Assembly (NCBI GenBank): GCA_030524175.1
Contig: JAUNHC010000025.1
Location: forward strand, 1 to 64,000
Direction of reading: 5' to 3'
DNA length: 64,000 bases
From: Eubacteriales bacterium
GTDB taxonomy: Bacteria > Bacillota > Clostridia > Lachnospirales > Lachnospiraceae
This document shows, piece by piece, positions 31,674 to 40,106 of the stretch (positions are counted from its first letter, which is position 1; each line of letters begins with the position of its first letter). The translations under genes were made by a program, and so were the position numbers. Below the pieces are notes generated by a model. It saw only the letters and a list, made by a program, of their open reading frames with translations. It was not told the origin of the DNA and ran no database searches.

Positions 31674-31754
31674 AATTACCACACCTCCGATTTAGTAATC
31701 TTATTATAACACCTGGAATAAAATTTTTCCTCTGTAATCGGAGATCACAGAGGA

Positions 31755-31823: not shown

Positions 31824-33059
31824 TTATTTGATCTTAACGGATTTTACAGTGCTGAAGGCTCCGTATATACGGCTTCCGTCAGGCATTTTTGTGAAGGCAC
31901 GTACTTTATAGTAATAGGTACCTTTTTTCAGTTTTGTCTGATTGTAGCTTGTTGTTTTTCCGCTGGTTAGTGTTTTCAGGCGGGAATAGGTTCCGTTTTT
32001 TGATGTGCTTCTGTAAATCTGGTAGCCGTCTGCCTGGGATACCTTTTTCCAGGATATCTTAACCTTCTTATTTTTGTCTGCCTTTACAGCTGCATTCAAT
32101 TTCGCCGGTGCAGTTTTGGCAGAGATTACTTTTGAGAAGGAACCGTACACTCTGTCCCTTTTCGAGTCATTGGTATAGGCACGGATTTTAAAACGATAAG
32201 ATTTCCCGTAGGACAGTGCTTTGCTTGTATAGCTTGTCACATTGCCATCCTGGACAGTTTTCATGCGGACATAGGCCTTTTTGCCGGTATCGTACTGATA
32301 AATTTGATATCCGTCTGCTTTGGGCACTTTTTTCCAGGAGAATACGATCCGATTGCTGCCGTTTTTAGTTTTTGATTTTAATGAAGTTGCAGCTGGTTTC
32401 GTCACAGGGGCAGGTGTGGGAGTGACCTCCGGGGCAGGTGTAACCTGTGGTGTTGGTGTTGGGTCCGGTGTGGGCTGGGGTGTAGGCTGCGGCGCCGGAG
32501 TTGTGCTGCCGCCGGGGTCAGGAGCCGGTGTAACCTCCGGCGTTGGTGTGGGAGTTGGTTTCTCCGAAGCATTACCTACAATTGCACCTGCGGCGTCTGT
32601 GATATCAATTACTGTCTTGCCATCAGCTTTATTGATCACTTCATAGTATACCGGCATTAAATTAGCCTGAAATTCTTCTTCGCCCTCCCATTGGATTGAA
32701 ATTTTGCCCAGGGAAAGGGATGGTGTCTCACTGAAAATATTTTGTGTCCCTGCAGTATAAATATGCAGTATCCCGTCATTTTTGTTATAAACAGCTTCTT
32801 TCACAGCCGAGGGTAATGCCTGGTTGAATAAAAATGTTACGGCAAGTCCTTGGGAGTTTCCTGCTGTCACTTCAACTTTAATATCGATTTGCATAGAGGT
32901 CACATCTGCTGACTCTGCAGGCTGATGTAACATGATGTCAGCTGACTTTTCTCCGCCGGTTATCATAATATCGCTGCCCTCTGCCAGGACGGCAGAGGGT
33001 GCAATAGTCAGTCCCAGCAGTAATAAAGCAGTAAATAAGATTTTATACCATTTCTTCAT
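31824..33059 (-). CDS. Secreted protein with N-terminal beta-sandwich, Pro/Thr linker and two Fn3 domains
   Basis: 411 residues. Signal peptide (LFTALLLLGLTIAPSAVLA). Residues ~30-165 are a beta-rich domain (DIKVEVTAGNSQGLAVTFLF, LSLGKISIQWEG) that could be cohesin-like; I am not certain. A Pro/Thr-rich linker (TPTPTPEVTPAP-type repeats, ~170-220) leads to two Fn3-like domains with WKKVPKADGYQIYQY and WKKVSQADGYQIYRS. The C-terminal GTYYYKVRAF...VKIK matches the end of the C1 protease. The start is 1 bp after the M60 stop, so the two are coupled. Probably a wall- or partner-binding protein. Confidence 0.8.
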   Translation of the reverse strand: MKKWYKILFTALLLLGLTIAPSAVLAEGSDIMITGGEKSADIMLHQPAESADVTSMQIDIKVEVTAGNSQGLAVTFLFNQALPSAVKEAVYNKNDGILHIYTAGTQNIFSETPSLSLGKISIQWEGEEEFQANLMPVYYEVINKADGKTVIDITDAAGAIVGNASEKPTPTPTPEVTPAPDPGGSTTPAPQPTPQPTPDPTPTPQVTPAPEVTPTPAPVTKPAATSLKSKTKNGSNRIVFSWKKVPKADGYQIYQYDTGKKAYVRMKTVQDGNVTSYTSKALSYGKSYRFKIRAYTNDSKRDRVYGSFSKVISAKTAPAKLNAAVKADKNKKVKISWKKVSQADGYQIYRSTSKNGTYSRLKTLTSGKTTSYNQTKLKKGTYYYKVRAFTKMPDGSRIYGAFSTVKSVKIK

Positions 33060-33060
33060 A

Positions 33061-36000
33061 TCAGTCCCCTTCTCCTGTATTAAAAGTGATTTCCGGCAGC
33101 TTTTCCGGAATTGTCAGATACAGGGTATCACTTACCAGGCGTTCTCCTTCGTTTGTGAGTGCATTGTCTACCCGGTACAATTCAGCACGTACCTGTTTCG
33201 GGATATTGAACTTGCCCTGTGAGTCGGGTAGTACGTAGTAAATCCAGTTTCCTTCCGAAACCTCACCAAGCTCTCCGTGCTCCGGTACTTCCGCCAGAAT
33301 GATCTGTTCTGATTTAAGATTTCCTTCGCTGTCTGTACCGCCTACCACATTGCCATTTTCATCGTACAGTACAGCTACATTATAAGCCGGGTTGCCTTTG
33401 TATGTTCCGGTGAAGACAAGAGAACCTTCAGGTATTTTTTGTACCCCTGTTTTATCGCTTGCGTATACATAATCCTCTTTTAAAATTCCGACAGGGGCAT
33501 CCTTGCGGAATTCCAGGTTGTCGCCGGAGGGTCCGAGGATTTCAAGCTCTGAAACAGAACGTTCCCCGGAGTCCAGAATCTGTAGCTTTAAATATTGGGC
33601 ATCAAAGGTGCACACAAAGGGATCTTTCTTTTCATTCTGGAAGTAAACTACAGCGGTGTCCGTGTTGTCAGTCTGGAATTGTCCTTCCTTTACAGTAAAC
33701 CATTTTGAGCCGTCTTTGCTCAGCTGTATTCTGTAATTCTTAATAGGAGTTGTTCCATCTTTCCATTCATATAACAGAGCGCTCACAGGCAATGTCTTAT
33801 GGAAGTCAAGAATGATCTCACCGTTTCCGGAGCTGCTTCCCGTAAAGGTACTGTTGGAATCATTATCAATCACCTTGTCAATTGCCCGTTCCACCAGTGC
33901 GATATCAGGATTCTCTTCATCCGGTTCTTTAACCTTGTCTTCATCAGTTTTTAAGTTATTATTTGTGTTCACAGTCCAGCCGGCTTTTGCATATCTTCCG
34001 TCAGAGGCTATTTTAACAGGGGCCAGACGGTAAGAGGCTGACCGGTTCAAGAACTTATCCACTGCTGCCACCTCATAGGTAACGACACGGTTTGCCTGGC
34101 TGATTGCTGTGTCTGTATAGGTGTTTTCTGTGGTAAACGCCGCAAGCTCTTTTATTTCAGTTCCTTTGGCATTTGTACAGCGGTAAATCTCATAGCCAAG
34201 CAGGGCGCTGCTGTTGTTTCCGCTCACCGAAAGACTCAATTCTGCTTTTGTGCCATGGGTTTCCACAGATGCATTGACGATATTCTTATCCTTAAAGGTA
34301 CTTTCAGTTCCGTTTTCAATCTCATACACGCGGGCCTCGTCATTGACATAGTAGATTGCCCGTTCCTCAGCCTCAAACTGATTCATGTATGCTTTTGTGG
34401 CTTCATCAGGTACCATTCCCCATCTCTGGAAAAACTCTGTCAAATCTTTTTCTGCTGCTGCTGCTGCCAGGCGCATAAGGTTCTGGTCTGTATCGCTCAG
34501 CGTCAGTTTTACTCCTCCTGGTGACGGAGCCTTGGATGTATCTCTGGCATAGCTGTCCACCCTTGCAAAGAATAGATTGTTGAAAATATCTTCGTAGGTA
34601 TCATATGTTTTATAGTTGTAGCCTCTGTCATAAGCCAGGTGCAGCTGCCAGTACAATGCCAATTGTACAAAAACGTTATCGGCACGTCCTACAGTCCCGG
34701 ATGTTACTTTTTCATATACATCTTTATATTTGAATCTTACAGTGTCATTGGTGTCATGTGCCTGAGCCAGAACTGAGAAGTAATTATTTGTTATCTCAGC
34801 AATTGCATAGGAACCCTGGTTGATCTCATGGCCGATTTCATGTGCGATCCCCCAGCCGAAGTATCTTCCGCTCTCATATCTTCCGTTGTTGCTTACAATC
34901 GGTGTTCCGCTCATCAGACCTGTCACTGAACCCCACTCGATTCCAACGTGATTTCCTGAGGCGTACATAAAGGCACCCGAGAACATTCTCATATAGCGGA
35001 TATTCAAATGCCGTGCCGGAAGCTTGTTTTTTGCACCGGCGTCGCTTGCATTGGTCAGACCTTTATGCTGGTAAAATAACAGCATCATATCATCCATGGC
35101 TTTTAATGCCTGGTTCAGCTTCTCTGCCTTCTCTTGTGTACTTCCGGAGCCAAGCCCTGCAAGCACCTGGCTGGCAGGTACGGAATACATCATCTGGTCA
35201 AGCATGATGTCTGTTGTATTTAAGATACAGTTTTTTGCATCATAATCGTAATTTACTGATGATAAATCACCTTTCTGATGCAGTTCTTTGTGCTGCTTTT
35301 CAAGTTCAGGTACAAATGCCTCTAATTCCTGTACATATTTTAAGATAGCATCGGCTCGTTCACTTTCTGATAATCTGTACAAATCCAGCCGTGGTATCTC
35401 TGCGCCGCCGTTTACCCTTACTCCGTAAGAAATCCCATTCTGACCGCCTGTGTACTGCACATAAAGCTGACCGCCCTGTTCCGCGGCGATACTCTGGATG
35501 GAAGGAATCGTCACTTCGTTACGGCCTACATTCAGAGTGGCAATTTCCTTTGCAAATGAGCTGGCTTCTGCATGATTTTGTGTCACAAATAATTTCATTT
35601 CCGCAGAAGTGCCTGTTTTCTTAGTGCTGTGTCCCACAAAGACTGTGATGGTTTCCCCGGCCCGGGCGCTTACCCCTAAAGGCTGCCATGCATTTAAACC
35701 GGTAAATCCTAGATATCCGTCACTATTTCTGATTTCTCCGTGGATGCCTACTGTGGATTTCAGATTTCCTTCCAGAATGCCTTTTGCTGTATCCAATTCT
35801 TTCTGAAGCATTTCTTTTTCCGGGTGAAACTCACCGCTTACACTATCTCTGGTATCCAGTCTGTTCTGAAGTTCCTGGATTGTTTCTGCTGTCACTGTTT
35901 CCTTCAGCATGGTATGTAAATCGTCTTCATAGAGATTTATAATATCTGTTTCCAGACTGTCATAGTAGAAAAGATTCAAATCAGACACTTGTATGCTTCT

Positions 36001-38439
36001 TATATAAGCATTAGGTTTTCCTATTCCAATATGGAACTTGCTTGCTTCCACAGGCTTATTGAATTTAACATAATAATATGCCTTGCCGTTGGTATCCAGT
36101 TTTCTGGAAATACTGGTATTCACGGATTTTACCGCATTATGCTCATCCCAGTAATCCAGCACTATCTTATTATAAGAGCCTTGATTACTGCTGTCCACAA
36201 AAGAGAAGCCTCCAATCTGGTATACAGCATCCAGTGTTATGATCAGTCCCTTTCCGTCTATAGACGGGTAGTAGGCACCGTCATCCCAGTCGTTCATATA
36301 ATAGCTTGAGGACTGGTTATTGTCTGCGACACCGTAAGCTGAATTCTTTATCTCCGAAGCATCATCAAGAGGACTGTCAAGCATTTTTCCTCTGCCATGT
36401 GTAATACTTTTAATATGTGCTGATAATTGTCCTTCACCCTTGCTTGTATTGATAAGCTTATATTCAGGCATTTTTACAGACGCCAGGCTTGTAGTGACTG
36501 CAACTGATTTCAGAGAAGGTTTGCCTTCTCCTTTCTCATTTACTCCTGTCACATATACGAAATATCTGGTGTTATCCTCCAGCTGGCTGACAGTATAGCT
36601 GTTCCCTGTAATATTCTCAATTTTATTATAGACAGAATCCGTGTCCTTACGGTAGTAAAGATTATAGCTGTCTGTATCCTTCATATTTTTCCAGGAAGCT
36701 GCCAGACTTTTGTATCCCCCTGTCACCTTGAGATTGTCAGGTGCATCTGGCACCTGGGTGGTTTTGGGTATTACCTCTTTAGGAGTGCAGTAGCCGCTTC
36801 TCCACTCGCCATTGACAGACTGTACTGAAATTTCATAGGTTTCATTGTTTTTCAGCTTATCATTTTTAAAAGATTTTACTGTCATGGAAGTAGCAGAGGT
36901 TTTCTTGATTTCATCCTCATCTCCATGGAGGATTTGTACCTCGTATCCTGTGACGTTTGATTCCTGGTTCCATTCTAATGTAAACTGCTGACTTCCGGCA
37001 GTTATACTTGTAATTACAGGAATATTCATCTGGGGTGCAGGAATCCGGTCCTGCATATTATTCACAAAGGTTACTTCAGATACTTCTGCAAGGGAAGTGT
37101 TAAGCTTTGTCCCTGTAATCTTGATCGTCACCTTCTTAACCGCGATCTGTCCATGAAAATCGATGACAATGGTGCCGTCTTTGTCCACAACTGCAGTGGG
37201 GCTTGACAGTTCAGAGGATTCCATCAGAAAGTATACAGCTTCCTCTGCTTTGGGTGAAAAGGGAACCTCAATGGGATATCCGGTATCAGTACCATCATCC
37301 ACTATTACGGTTATGGTTCCCGTTGTGACGGCATTATTGCTTCCAGCCGGGGACTCCAAGGTAATTCCCTGTATGGCTGGAGGGTTTTCCGCACTATTGG
37401 AGAAATCAAAGGCTACTTCCACAGGATTTTCTTGAGAAATCACCGCATTATTTGATGCTGCAAGCTGAACTGTACGCTCACTTTCGCTTAAGTTATTTCC
37501 GCCTAAGTTTTCAAGGTTTCCGCCTGTGATCTGTGTTCCTTCTGAAACATTCTTCTGTGCTGCCTGAACCGGAACAGAAGCCAATACACTGGAAGTGTAG
37601 GAGGTTGTTTGCTCCAGGCCTTTTGCAAAATAGTGCAGATCCATAAGATCTACAGTTCCGTCAAGATTTAAATCCGCATTTATGTTACCGCTGCCGTTTT
37701 CAATTGTCTGCAGAATGATATCTTTATCCAGACTGTCTGTCATACCGTCGCCGTTTATATCCCCAATTAGCATAGCGCCGGGATGCCCGGCAGCGTTATA
37801 GTCTACTCCTGCCAGCATTCCTGTATATACCTGAATGGAATAATCCATTGCCTCCACCGTAAGACTTTGCTTATATGGGGCAAAGCCCTGGCTATTGATC
37901 GTGAGTGTATAATCTCCTGCCTGCAGTCCGGGAAAATATGCAGATGTGGAAGGGATTCCCCCTTCACTTGCTGCAGGTATTGTTATGGTCTGGTTCCCTG
38001 AGTTAGTCAATTCCACAGAAAAATTCCTGTCATTGGCCATGGTAACTGCTGAAAGCAGTTCAACCTTTAAGCTTCCGTTTCCCGTTCCGGAATTTTCTGC
38101 CAAATCAGTGAAGGCTTCTTCTGACTCTTCTGTTCCGTCCCCGAATAATGGTTCTTCTGCCATATCTTCACCGCTTTGGAACAGGGAGTCGTTTTCTCCT
38201 GTATCATTATTTTCAAAAATCTCCACATCATTCTGCGGATCCTCATTTTCAGCCGTCTGTCCGTCCTGGCTTTCCGCTCCCATATCCTCCGTACTGCCGG
38301 GCTGCTCTTCTGTCCCAGGATTCTCATCATCATAAATCCCGGTTTCCTCAAAATCTGCGGCCATAATAATTCCGGGTGATGCACAAATAGCCTGTACACT
38401 CAGGCATAAGGCAATAAATAGTGCTGCAGCTTTTTTCAT
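33061..38439 (-). CDS. Large secreted M60-family metallopeptidase with dockerin-like, Fn3 and F5/8 domains
   Basis: 1792 residues from ATG 38439 (AGGAGG 9 bp upstream); a longer frame to 38508 starts inside the leader terminator. Order: signal peptide; acidic region (30-110); dockerin-like pair of calcium loops DINGDGMTDSLD and DLNLDGTVDLMD (~220-280); a beta domain; two Fn3 domains (~463-650); an F5/8 discoidin domain (~670-790); M60/enhancin-like peptidase (~900-1350) with HEIGHEINQ at ~1200 and a later Glu in YAIAEITNNYF; a second F5/8 domain (~1500-1640). M60 enzymes of this build cut O-glycosylated mucin-type proteins. Controlled by the upstream c-di-GMP aptamer. Confidence 0.88.
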   Translation of the reverse strand: MKKAAALFIALCLSVQAICASPGIIMAADFEETGIYDDENPGTEEQPGSTEDMGAESQDGQTAENEDPQNDVEIFENNDTGENDSLFQSGEDMAEEPLFGDGTEESEEAFTDLAENSGTGNGSLKVELLSAVTMANDRNFSVELTNSGNQTITIPAASEGGIPSTSAYFPGLQAGDYTLTINSQGFAPYKQSLTVEAMDYSIQVYTGMLAGVDYNAAGHPGAMLIGDINGDGMTDSLDKDIILQTIENGSGNINADLNLDGTVDLMDLHYFAKGLEQTTSYTSSVLASVPVQAAQKNVSEGTQITGGNLENLGGNNLSESERTVQLAASNNAVISQENPVEVAFDFSNSAENPPAIQGITLESPAGSNNAVTTGTITVIVDDGTDTGYPIEVPFSPKAEEAVYFLMESSELSSPTAVVDKDGTIVIDFHGQIAVKKVTIKITGTKLNTSLAEVSEVTFVNNMQDRIPAPQMNIPVITSITAGSQQFTLEWNQESNVTGYEVQILHGDEDEIKKTSATSMTVKSFKNDKLKNNETYEISVQSVNGEWRSGYCTPKEVIPKTTQVPDAPDNLKVTGGYKSLAASWKNMKDTDSYNLYYRKDTDSVYNKIENITGNSYTVSQLEDNTRYFVYVTGVNEKGEGKPSLKSVAVTTSLASVKMPEYKLINTSKGEGQLSAHIKSITHGRGKMLDSPLDDASEIKNSAYGVADNNQSSSYYMNDWDDGAYYPSIDGKGLIITLDAVYQIGGFSFVDSSNQGSYNKIVLDYWDEHNAVKSVNTSISRKLDTNGKAYYYVKFNKPVEASKFHIGIGKPNAYIRSIQVSDLNLFYYDSLETDIINLYEDDLHTMLKETVTAETIQELQNRLDTRDSVSGEFHPEKEMLQKELDTAKGILEGNLKSTVGIHGEIRNSDGYLGFTGLNAWQPLGVSARAGETITVFVGHSTKKTGTSAEMKLFVTQNHAEASSFAKEIATLNVGRNEVTIPSIQSIAAEQGGQLYVQYTGGQNGISYGVRVNGGAEIPRLDLYRLSESERADAILKYVQELEAFVPELEKQHKELHQKGDLSSVNYDYDAKNCILNTTDIMLDQMMYSVPASQVLAGLGSGSTQEKAEKLNQALKAMDDMMLLFYQHKGLTNASDAGAKNKLPARHLNIRYMRMFSGAFMYASGNHVGIEWGSVTGLMSGTPIVSNNGRYESGRYFGWGIAHEIGHEINQGSYAIAEITNNYFSVLAQAHDTNDTVRFKYKDVYEKVTSGTVGRADNVFVQLALYWQLHLAYDRGYNYKTYDTYEDIFNNLFFARVDSYARDTSKAPSPGGVKLTLSDTDQNLMRLAAAAAEKDLTEFFQRWGMVPDEATKAYMNQFEAEERAIYYVNDEARVYEIENGTESTFKDKNIVNASVETHGTKAELSLSVSGNNSSALLGYEIYRCTNAKGTEIKELAAFTTENTYTDTAISQANRVVTYEVAAVDKFLNRSASYRLAPVKIASDGRYAKAGWTVNTNNNLKTDEDKVKEPDEENPDIALVERAIDKVIDNDSNSTFTGSSSGNGEIILDFHKTLPVSALLYEWKDGTTPIKNYRIQLSKDGSKWFTVKEGQFQTDNTDTAVVYFQNEKKDPFVCTFDAQYLKLQILDSGERSVSELEILGPSGDNLEFRKDAPVGILKEDYVYASDKTGVQKIPEGSLVFTGTYKGNPAYNVAVLYDENGNVVGGTDSEGNLKSEQIILAEVPEHGELGEVSEGNWIYYVLPDSQGKFNIPKQVRAELYRVDNALTNEGERLVSDTLYLTIPEKLPEITFNTGEGD

Positions 38440-38506: not shown

Positions 38507-38544
38507 AAAAAAATCGTTTATATTTTTGGTAAAATATAAACGAT
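38507..38544 (-). terminator. Leader terminator (expression platform) of the c-di-GMP riboswitch
   Basis: On the minus strand ATCGTTTATATTTT pairs with AAAATATAAACGAT around a tiny loop and is followed by seven T. It lies between the aptamer and the start codon, so it can abort transcription before the gene. Confidence 0.85.
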
Positions 38545-38639
38545 TGCCGGCAAAACGTAAAACCTCACAACTGTCATAAAAACAACGCTGACAGAACACA
38601 ATGATCATGTGTATTTGTTACATTTCACTGAGAAAACTC

Positions 38640-38720
38640 TTGCGGCAACCGGCTGTCCTAGCTTCTGAAGAAGCCTTAGACCCTTGGCTTTGCGTCACCG
38701 TCTTTCGACAGTTTTGCTAT
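38640..38720 (-). ncRNA. Cyclic di-GMP-I (GEMM) riboswitch aptamer
   Basis: On the minus strand the GEMM-I core is complete: GCAAAAC, a stem capped by a GAAA tetraloop (TGTC-GAAA-GACG), GACGCAAAGCC, GGGTCTAAGG, a variable stem, TAGGACAGCCGGTTGCC. The tetraloop, the GACGCAAAGCC strand and the CTAA/TAGG pair are the class-defining features. The class senses c-di-GMP. With a terminator 100 nt downstream, an OFF switch is the simplest reading, as for several clostridial examples. Confidence 0.93.
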
Positions 38721-38743
38721 TTCTGTAACTTCCATATATTCTC

Positions 38744-38772
38744 AGTTTACTAATCTAAACCCTGGCTGTCAA
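38744..38772 (-). promoter_or_regulatory. Promoter of the riboswitch-M60 operon
   Basis: On the minus strand TTGACA (38767-38772), 17 bp, TAAACT (38744-38749). It overlaps the last codons of the MATE gene and starts the leader about 20 nt before the aptamer. Confidence 0.8.
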
Positions 38773-40106
38773 GTTATTTTTTTCAGTATCCGGATGCCTC
38801 CTGCAATGAGAAGAATGGCTGCTCCTGCCCATGCACAGGGTTCGGCGTAAAAAATTGCCTCACTTCCCCAAATTCTTGTGAAAATAAGGGCTGCTGCAAC
38901 ACGCATAACAAATTCCGCTACCCCTGAAATCATAGGTATGATTGCGTTTCCAAGTCCTTGTATGGCACTCCGCCATCCATGAAGCAGATATAGAAACCAG
39001 AGAAGGCAGCTCATAATAACCAGATAGTGGTATGCTATGTTAAGAACTTCTCCTCCATTGGCATCCCCGGAGGACACAAACAAGCTTAAAACAGCCTTTC
39101 CCCCAAAAAGCATGACGGCGGATACACATACTGACATCAATACTGCCATAATAGTAATACTCTTCATCCCCTTGTGGATCCGTTCATTCAGACCTGCGCC
39201 ATAGTTCTGGGCCATATAAGTGGTAGCAGCATACCCTAAGGAGATGGCGGAACTTTCCAGCAAACCGTATATCTTATTTGTGGCAGTAAAGCCTGCAACA
39301 AACAAGAAGCCATAGCGGTTGATGGTAGACTGCAGAATCATACCGCCCACAGCAATCAGCACGTGCTGAAGGGCTAAGGGAACCCCAAGCTGACACAGGC
39401 GTTTGATTGCAGGCCAATCCACGATCCAGTCTTCACGGGAGGTTCTGATGATCTCGATATTTTTCAGTACCATAAAGCAATACAAAAAGGCAATAAGCTG
39501 TGCTATAAGAGTAGCAACTGCAGCGCCCACAATACCCCAGCGGAACACAAGGATAAACAGTAAGTCCAAAACAATATTGGTACAGGCGGCAACTGCGATT
39601 GCGATCATAGGGGTTTTGCCGTCCCCAAGAGCCCGCAGGATAGCCGCTGCCATATTATATGCCATGACGATTACAGTACCTAAAAACAAGGTTATTAAAT
39701 AGGAAGCAGCGCTGTCAAATATGTTTTCCGGAGTTTTTAAAATATGCAGCATGGGATATACAAGGAACAGCCCGATGGCAGTAAACACAATGCCGATGAC
39801 ACCGCACAATGTGATTGACATAGCCACGCCCTTTCTCAGTTCCTGCTTGTCTCCTGCACCGAAATACTGTGACAGGCGTGTGGCAAAGCCTTGTGTCATG
39901 GCTTGGATCGTCCACAGGATGAGCCAGTAGGTCCAGTCTGTTGCCCCTACTGCAGCCAAAGCTTCCACTCCTACACCTCGTCCTACAATAACTGCATCCG
40001 CCACCATATATAGCTGCTGTCCCAGGTTCCCTATCATCAAGGGTACAGCAAACATTAAAAGAAGCTTAGACGGCTTCCCTTTTGTCATATCTTTGATTCT
40101 GCTCAT
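38769..40106 (-). CDS. MATE family efflux transporter
   Basis: 445 residues with about 12 membrane helices in two halves. MATE traits: GKPSKLLLMFAVPLMIGNLGQQLYMVADAVIVGRGVGVEALAAVGATDW in half one, QHVLIAVGGMILQSTINRYG and MAQNYGAGLNERIHKG in half two. It exports drugs or cations using Na+ or H+. A MITE is inserted 30 bp before its start, so its expression signals may be affected. A divergent AraC gene may regulate it. Confidence 0.93.
   Translation of the reverse strand: MSRIKDMTKGKPSKLLLMFAVPLMIGNLGQQLYMVADAVIVGRGVGVEALAAVGATDWTYWLILWTIQAMTQGFATRLSQYFGAGDKQELRKGVAMSITLCGVIGIVFTAIGLFLVYPMLHILKTPENIFDSAASYLITLFLGTVIVMAYNMAAAILRALGDGKTPMIAIAVAACTNIVLDLLFILVFRWGIVGAAVATLIAQLIAFLYCFMVLKNIEIIRTSREDWIVDWPAIKRLCQLGVPLALQHVLIAVGGMILQSTINRYGFLFVAGFTATNKIYGLLESSAISLGYAATTYMAQNYGAGLNERIHKGMKSITIMAVLMSVCVSAVMLFGGKAVLSLFVSSGDANGGEVLNIAYHYLVIMSCLLWFLYLLHGWRSAIQGLGNAIIPMISGVAEFVMRVAAALIFTRIWGSEAIFYAEPCAWAGAAILLIAGGIRILKKIT

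Follow-up and report, generated by a model that had tools for sequence, protein, structure and literature searches.

Organization of the locus

The window, which here denotes the whole 64-kb stretch of DNA that was analysed (64,000 nucleotides), belongs to a Blautia-type gut genome of 5.95 Mb in 119 contigs. A leader spanning 38772 to 38440 (-) lies immediately 3' of a MATE transporter gene and runs into the gene of a large M60 metallopeptidase, which is followed, with its ATG only one base past the M60 stop codon, by the gene of a partner protein (Table 1). The preliminary description of this DNA had placed a promoter, a GEMM-I aptamer and an intrinsic terminator ahead of the M60 gene. All three were located, with 38507-38772 running from the promoter through the end of the U-tract. 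The -35 hexamer overlaps the stop codon of the upstream MATE gene. The promoter matches the consensus at 10 of 12 positions, and its hexamers are identical in Blautia schinkii in a two-species alignment; the window has a single copy of the exact pattern, where 0.01 would be expected, a count made with a pattern derived from the site itself. At the other end of the operon, inspection by eye shows another inverted repeat, longer and with ATTTTT behind it, between the partner stop codon and the terminator-like hairpin listed in Table 1.

Table 1. Features of the leader and operon, in window coordinates
Feature	Position	Strand	Remarks
MATE transporter gene	38769-40106	(-)	Upstream neighbour of the leader
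Promoter	38744..38772	(-)	-35 TTGACA 38772-38767, 17-nt spacer, -10 TAAACT 38749-38744
c-di-GMP-I (GEMM-I) aptamer	38641..38728	(-)	RF01051, 78.8 bits
Complementary hexamers	38617..38729	(-)	GUUACA 38729-38724 and UGUAAC 38622-38617
Aptamer 3' strand GGUUGCCGCAA, proposed antiterminator partner	38640..38650	(-)	Truncated-transcript folds, shuffles, compensatory change
Switching strand, within UUUUGCCGGCAAUC	38542..38553	(-)	Predicted to pair with aptamer 3' strand; AAUC common to terminator 5' arm
Intrinsic terminator	38507..38545	(-)	15-bp hairpin 38545-38512 and U-tract 38511-38507; AT-rich
M60 metallopeptidase gene	33061..38439	(-)	1792 aa; start codon ATG at 38439, stop codon at 33061
Dockerin domain, aa 226-268	37636..37764	(-)	Two Ca-loop motifs (by eye)
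Fn3 domain, aa 565-645	36505..36747	(-)	Domain search of M60 protein
Peptidase_M60 domain, aa 1112-1341	34417..35106	(-)	HEIGH at aa 1200
F5/8 type C domain, aa 1521-1623	33571..33879	(-)	Domain search of M60 protein
Partner protein gene	31824..33059	(-)	411 aa; cohesin-fold domain, Pro-rich linker, two Fn3
Cohesin-fold domain of partner, aa 28-165	32565..32978	(-)	Structural comparison
Terminator-like hairpin 3' of operon	31728..31754	(-)	Terminator scan and inspection

Identity of the aptamer

A covariance search assigned the leader element to RF01051 well over the threshold and at full model length (gathering score 35, E 8.2e-14, model positions 1-87 of 87), and this was the sole Rfam match at the gathering score within the window. 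The core elements GTCGAAAGAC, GACGCAAAGCC and CTAAGG/GCTAGG are all found, in agreement with the full GEMM-I core claimed earlier. Among 36 aligned related aptamers 97.8% of cells are paired and 14 of 20 pairs show two-sided change (0 of 500 shuffles), in an alignment that was fitted to the RF01051 model and is hence biased towards it. The hexamers GUUACA and UGUAAC, invariant between the window and B. schinkii in the two-species alignment, could pair as an outer helix closing the aptamer.

The M60 peptidase and its partner

The enzyme proved to be what had been described, a 1792-residue M60 protein with an F5/8 domain and a dockerin-like module. PF13402 scores 49.9 bits against a cut-off of 25.8, the HExxH motif with a downstream E is present as HEIGHEINQGSYAIAEITNN at residue 1200, and the N-terminus looks signal-like by eye. 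The dockerin scores 20.3 bits within the whole protein, under the cut-off of 22.9, and 23.5 bits when scanned alone; it is also backed by PDB profile matches, 2ozn among them, and by fold comparison. Solved M60 relatives found by sequence include the glycopeptidases ZmpA, ZmpC and BcM60C, while the best solved-relative rows bear only the name 'F5/8 type C domain protein'. The protein is thus a predicted O-glycopeptidase, presumably secreted and with mucin as its presumed substrate.

The coupled partner that had been noted downstream can now be described as a cohesin-fold protein. In structural comparison its best 23 rows are all cohesin or cohesin-dockerin entries; the search against Pfam did not reach a cohesin match, and the assignment is by fold comparison. 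A plain Foldseek listing for the partner is filled by Fn3 rows. A relationship to SslE/AcfD was considered for the partner and rejected, as the weak match of residues 161-319 was tentatively put down to the Pro-rich linker/Fn3 region. With a dockerin on the enzyme and a cohesin fold on the partner, both sides of a cohesin-dockerin pair are represented, suggesting that the operon probably makes an enzyme together with a protein that holds it through predicted cohesin-dockerin binding.

Aptamer-M60 linkage across genomes

The closest named holder of the window M60 protein is B. schinkii DSM 10518, at 65-67% identity; aptamer positions in its genome (G098) coincide with those in G053, a member of the genus. 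Within the genus, M60 genes are found in four of 64 genomes (five genes in total) and RF01051 in 39 of the 64, 38 of them above the cut-off. All three M60 genes in genus genomes that bear RF01051 directly follow an aptamer, two of them in the genome of the window and one in B. schinkii; the other two genus genomes with M60 (G014 and G045) gave no RF01051 match. The second M60 gene of the window genome, on contig C55, stands behind an aptamer of its own (L008:9917-10001 (-)), and its product is built differently, with NPCBM and Ig-like domains and an HELGH motif. For a single gene, the probability of starting no more than 500 nt downstream of any of five aptamers is 2.1e-4, and the association between M60 genes and aptamers exceeds chance. 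A fourth aptamer-M60 pair belongs to the homologue in Eisenbergiella tayi DSM 26961. Of 13 genomes from the genus of E. tayi, one other contains pieces of a relative of P0001.

Most other M60 homologues have no aptamer. On genome contigs, the aptamer adjoins M60 in two of the 23 loci of P0001 homologues; 18 of these 23 genomes gave no RF01051 match, and three have RF01051 elsewhere in the genome, one of the contigs (L061) ending 618 bases before the M60 frame. In a sample of the same order, M60 is present in 50 of 392 genomes. RF01051 was sought in the genome of the window, in G069 and G088, and in the other 47 M60 genomes of the order, the last with stricter filters under which weak matches are lost (24 positive, one below the cut-off). 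A further 26 genomes of the order carry both M60 and RF01051, and by comparison of coordinates the two are adjacent in none of them. In the tree, starred branches separate the E. tayi M60 protein from the Blautia pair; several of the remaining rows sit on long branches. The idea that the link originated just once in the P0001 family was considered and rejected, as two changes are required on the tree, although a single gain followed by many losses may also account for the pattern.

Other aptamers accompany other genes. An RF01051 aptamer precedes a stand-alone EAL protein both in the genome of the window (contig C29, L009:2672-2755 (-)) and in B. schinkii (L139:2301-2384 (-)), and the 5' arm of the terminator in this leader is the 3' strand of the aptamer itself, an ON layout that is kept in B. 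schinkii. Since the EAL phosphodiesterase has an ON layout, it may exert negative feedback on c-di-GMP; riboswitch control of c-di-GMP metabolic genes is called rare in a passage of a review (PMC6366702). A further aptamer, on contig C23 (L007:8471-8555 (+)), has A20 and an OFF-type layout, and precedes a 232-aa protein without a Pfam match and then a secreted-looking protein ended by the contig edge. For a large share of the top-scoring aptamers in the genus, the sequence that follows reads N, as at L006:8751-9860 on contig C87 of the same genome.

The pocket base and the ligand

The base in the ligand pocket was read from model-fitted alignments, with Rfam position 11 taken as Vc2 G20. Here the window aptamer has A; it lacks the G of the c-di-GMP-selective subclass and has the A of cGAMP (GEMM-Ib) riboswitches. 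Among 109 distinct aptamers (108 genus-search matches plus E. tayi, minus two duplicates), 100 have G and nine have A at this position, a set that keeps L193 and L194, both below the gathering score and the latter among those with A. The A is found in the aptamers of the window, of the B. schinkii M60 gene and of the second M60 gene of the genome, that is, in three of the four M60-linked aptamers against six of the 105 others (Fisher p 0.0015), a test picked after inspection of the data and one in which the three A20 M60 aptamers are non-independent, two being orthologues and two lying in one genome.

Domain searches of the genome give 41 matches to GGDEF and 17 to EAL, in each case including a single match under the cut-off, which amounts to a large c-di-GMP network. 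A search for c-di-GMP-II aptamers (RF01786) gave no match in the genome of the window, nor did it in the control genomes. Hypr enzymes have Ser or Thr at the selectivity position of the GGDEF motif. Domains were read at this position for 39 of the 41 GGDEF matches and showed neither residue, so that the Hypr synthase expected beside a cGAMP riboswitch was not found among them. The 33 domain rows from the 30 best GGDEF loci, in which the overlapping loci L116 and L117 give repeat rows, have 32 D and one N; the nine rows from eight further loci have seven D, one N and one E, while the ninth further locus yielded no row, one domain is counted in both sets and degenerate sequences are frequent among the later matches. 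The residue named in the literature as that of Hypr enzymes is S347 (PMC6456294). As no cGAMP-synthase signature appears among the GGDEF domains read, c-di-GMP stays the likelier ligand. The earlier naming of c-di-GMP is supported with one refinement: the pocket base, G in the majority of the genus aptamers, is A in the window aptamer, which had been missed, and c-di-GMP is accordingly the probable ligand, short of certainty.

An A20-type aptamer might instead sense 3',3'-cGAMP, or both dinucleotides, which would leave the mechanics of the switch unchanged. Apart from the pocket base itself, a passage on Desulfobacca reports that the pocket change typical of cGAMP riboswitches markedly improves cGAMP binding, perhaps with slightly weaker binding of c-di-GMP, the position being unnamed in that passage (PMC9481103); a crystal structure of G20A GEMM-I with cGAMP bound is described in part of another report (PMC6274999); and the genome has one weak match to a SMODS nucleotidyltransferase (27.4 against a cut-off of 26.5 bits). 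However, the GGDEF survey gave no candidate synthase, the enrichment of A among M60-linked aptamers comes from the post hoc and non-independent comparison above, the M60 aptamer of E. tayi has G, and substituting A or C for the equivalent G of the C. difficile Cd1 aptamer caused no major change, according to the passage concerned (PMC9262584). We therefore regard this alternative as unlikely, and still somewhat less likely its extension, in which the A20 aptamers are a separate input, so that the M60 peptidases answer to 3',3'-cGAMP or both dinucleotides and the G20 EAL switch to c-di-GMP. If that were true, a gut commensal would gate the cutting of mucus via a second cyclic dinucleotide. The SMODS-type match is at C19:73310-73810 of the genome and possibly belongs to a CBASS-like defence system.

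Terminator, antiterminator and direction of switching

The terminator hairpin has a predicted stability of -12.7 kcal/mol, and folding of the surrounding 61 nt gives a z of -4.9, none of 200 shuffles being equally stable. The terminator scan missed this hairpin because it demands three G-C pairs and the hairpin has two. When transcripts were cut at the terminator apex, 11.5 pairs were expected between the aptamer 3' strand and the switching strand, and 0 of 200 dinucleotide shuffles reached as high. The same pairing is weaker in the B. schinkii leader, at 5.8 pairs (9 of 200 shuffles as high), and came to 6.7 and 8.6 in the C23 and C55 leaders of the same genome (4 and 8 of 200, respectively), and 7.2 in E. 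tayi (1 of 200).

The order of promoter, aptamer, terminator and gene is kept in B. schinkii. Of the 11 antiterminator pairs, nine are unchanged there, one is compensatory (G-C to A-U) and one is broken; 12 of the 15 terminator pairs were compared, of which 10 are unchanged, one is compensatory (U-A to A-U) and one has a one-sided change, after manual matching of the 3' arms, which the two-species alignment had left apart. This evidence for conservation of the leader comes from one species pair.

The leader thus has an expression platform made of a terminator and a competing antiterminator, in which the aptamer 3' strand pairs with the 5' side of the terminator, as in an OFF switch of the Cd1 type. 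In the absence of ligand, GGUUGCCGCAA would leave the aptamer and pair with the nascent UUUUGCCGGCAAUC, which would keep the terminator foot occupied until RNA polymerase had passed into the operon. When ligand is bound, the 3' strand would be held in the aptamer, the terminator would form and transcription would end ahead of the M60 gene. At equilibrium, the complete ligand-free RNA forms 14.1-14.3 of the 15 terminator pairs; in these folds, completion of the terminator costs the antiterminator its overlapping outer pairs and leaves the inner ones in place. The two structures overlap by four bases only. Given that the ligand-free RNA would also terminate at equilibrium and that so few bases are in common, read-through must depend on kinetics. 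Likewise, the antiterminator of Cd1 has been described as transiently stable, in the passage on that switch (PMC9262584). Since the layout matches the Cd1 OFF switch of C. difficile, ligand should halt transcription, and the architecture supports the direction implied earlier. A review cautions that the direction of switching is not transferable between species (PMC6366702).

The covariance match, the conservation in B. schinkii, the terminator/antiterminator architecture and the second aptamer-M60 pair in the genome all support the reading of the leader as a putative GEMM-I switch that acts on transcription of the M60 operon. In theory, the aptamer may no longer be regulatory and expression may be set by read-through or by transcripts from the upstream MATE gene. 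Such transcripts could enter, judging by the overlap of the -35 hexamer with the MATE stop codon, and an excerpt on C. difficile 630 reports 5 of 12 class I aptamers without a detectable downstream coding sequence (PMC6200980). Nevertheless, the aptamer is full-length and high-scoring, promoter and terminator are conserved with compensatory changes, and transcripts from the MATE gene would presumably traverse the switch as well, making a defunct aptamer improbable. Least credible is an ON direction, in which ligand lowers termination: ON-type class I switches are known (Bc2 and pilM, in passages of PMC6366702 and PMC9262584) and the EAL leader of the same genome has such a layout, but the window terminator begins 95 nt past the aptamer with arms that contain no aptamer strand, and the strong competing pairing is one between the terminator foot and the 3' strand of the aptamer. 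We consider it likely, from what can be read in the sequence, that the leader is an OFF-type GEMM-I switch, its ligand most likely c-di-GMP, which controls an operon of a secreted M60 peptidase with a dockerin and its probable cohesin-fold holder.

Discussion

If the OFF-switch reading is right, a commensal-type gut bacterium couples the cutting of mucin to the signal by which bacteria choose to attach or roam, and cutting may stop on settling. The opposite layouts within one genome, with M60 off and the phosphodiesterase on, further predict a feedback in which the protease returns as c-di-GMP is degraded. The wiring of aptamer to M60 would also have arisen more than once. In C. difficile, a different protease is tied to the signal. 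Whether mucus foraging follows the level of c-di-GMP could then be tested in B. schinkii and E. tayi, both of which are isolates.

The riboswitch class is already known. Its M60 target and the repeated wiring were not met in the open-access literature searched, as judged by titles and abstract openings, in keeping with the preliminary description, whose author knew of no M60 enzyme as a described target. The likeness to the c-di-GMP-repressed protease switches of C. difficile, also drawn there, is a close one: the Cdi-1-12 riboswitch of zmpI/PPEP-1 is likewise a class I aptamer ahead of a secreted metalloprotease (passages of PMC6200980 and PMC11477304) and is OFF with c-di-GMP, zmpI falling 62.61-fold, and six of the seven class I switches of C. 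difficile with an altered downstream gene fall under c-di-GMP, as reported in the part of that study concerned (PMC6200980). PPEP-1, however, is a Pro-Pro endopeptidase by which the bacterium releases adhesins of its own, whereas the window encodes a 1792-aa M60 protein that carries a dockerin, together with a partner of cohesin fold. In the Cd1 riboswitch of flgB, the antiterminator is likewise made by the aptamer 3' strand and the strand that enters the terminator (a passage of PMC9262584), but its target is a flagellar operon and its pocket has G in place of the A of the window aptamer.

ZmpA, ZmpC and BcM60C have the M60 domain in common with the window protein, and no riboswitch link for them was found in the literature searched. 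A 2012 survey of PF13402 lists dockerin type 1 on two M60-like proteins, as in the window protease, and the survey text mentions neither cohesin nor riboswitch (PMC3267712). Cohesin and dockerin modules such as those predicted here are found in the C. perfringens NagJ-NagH complex (2ozn), and the Limousia mucinolysome (2026) has them on mucin-degrading enzymes that include peptidases, according to an excerpt of the report (PMC12997984). In contrast to NagJ-NagH and Limousia, the window operon would place one M60 enzyme and one cohesin-fold protein, without a multi-cohesin scaffold in the operon, under a riboswitch.
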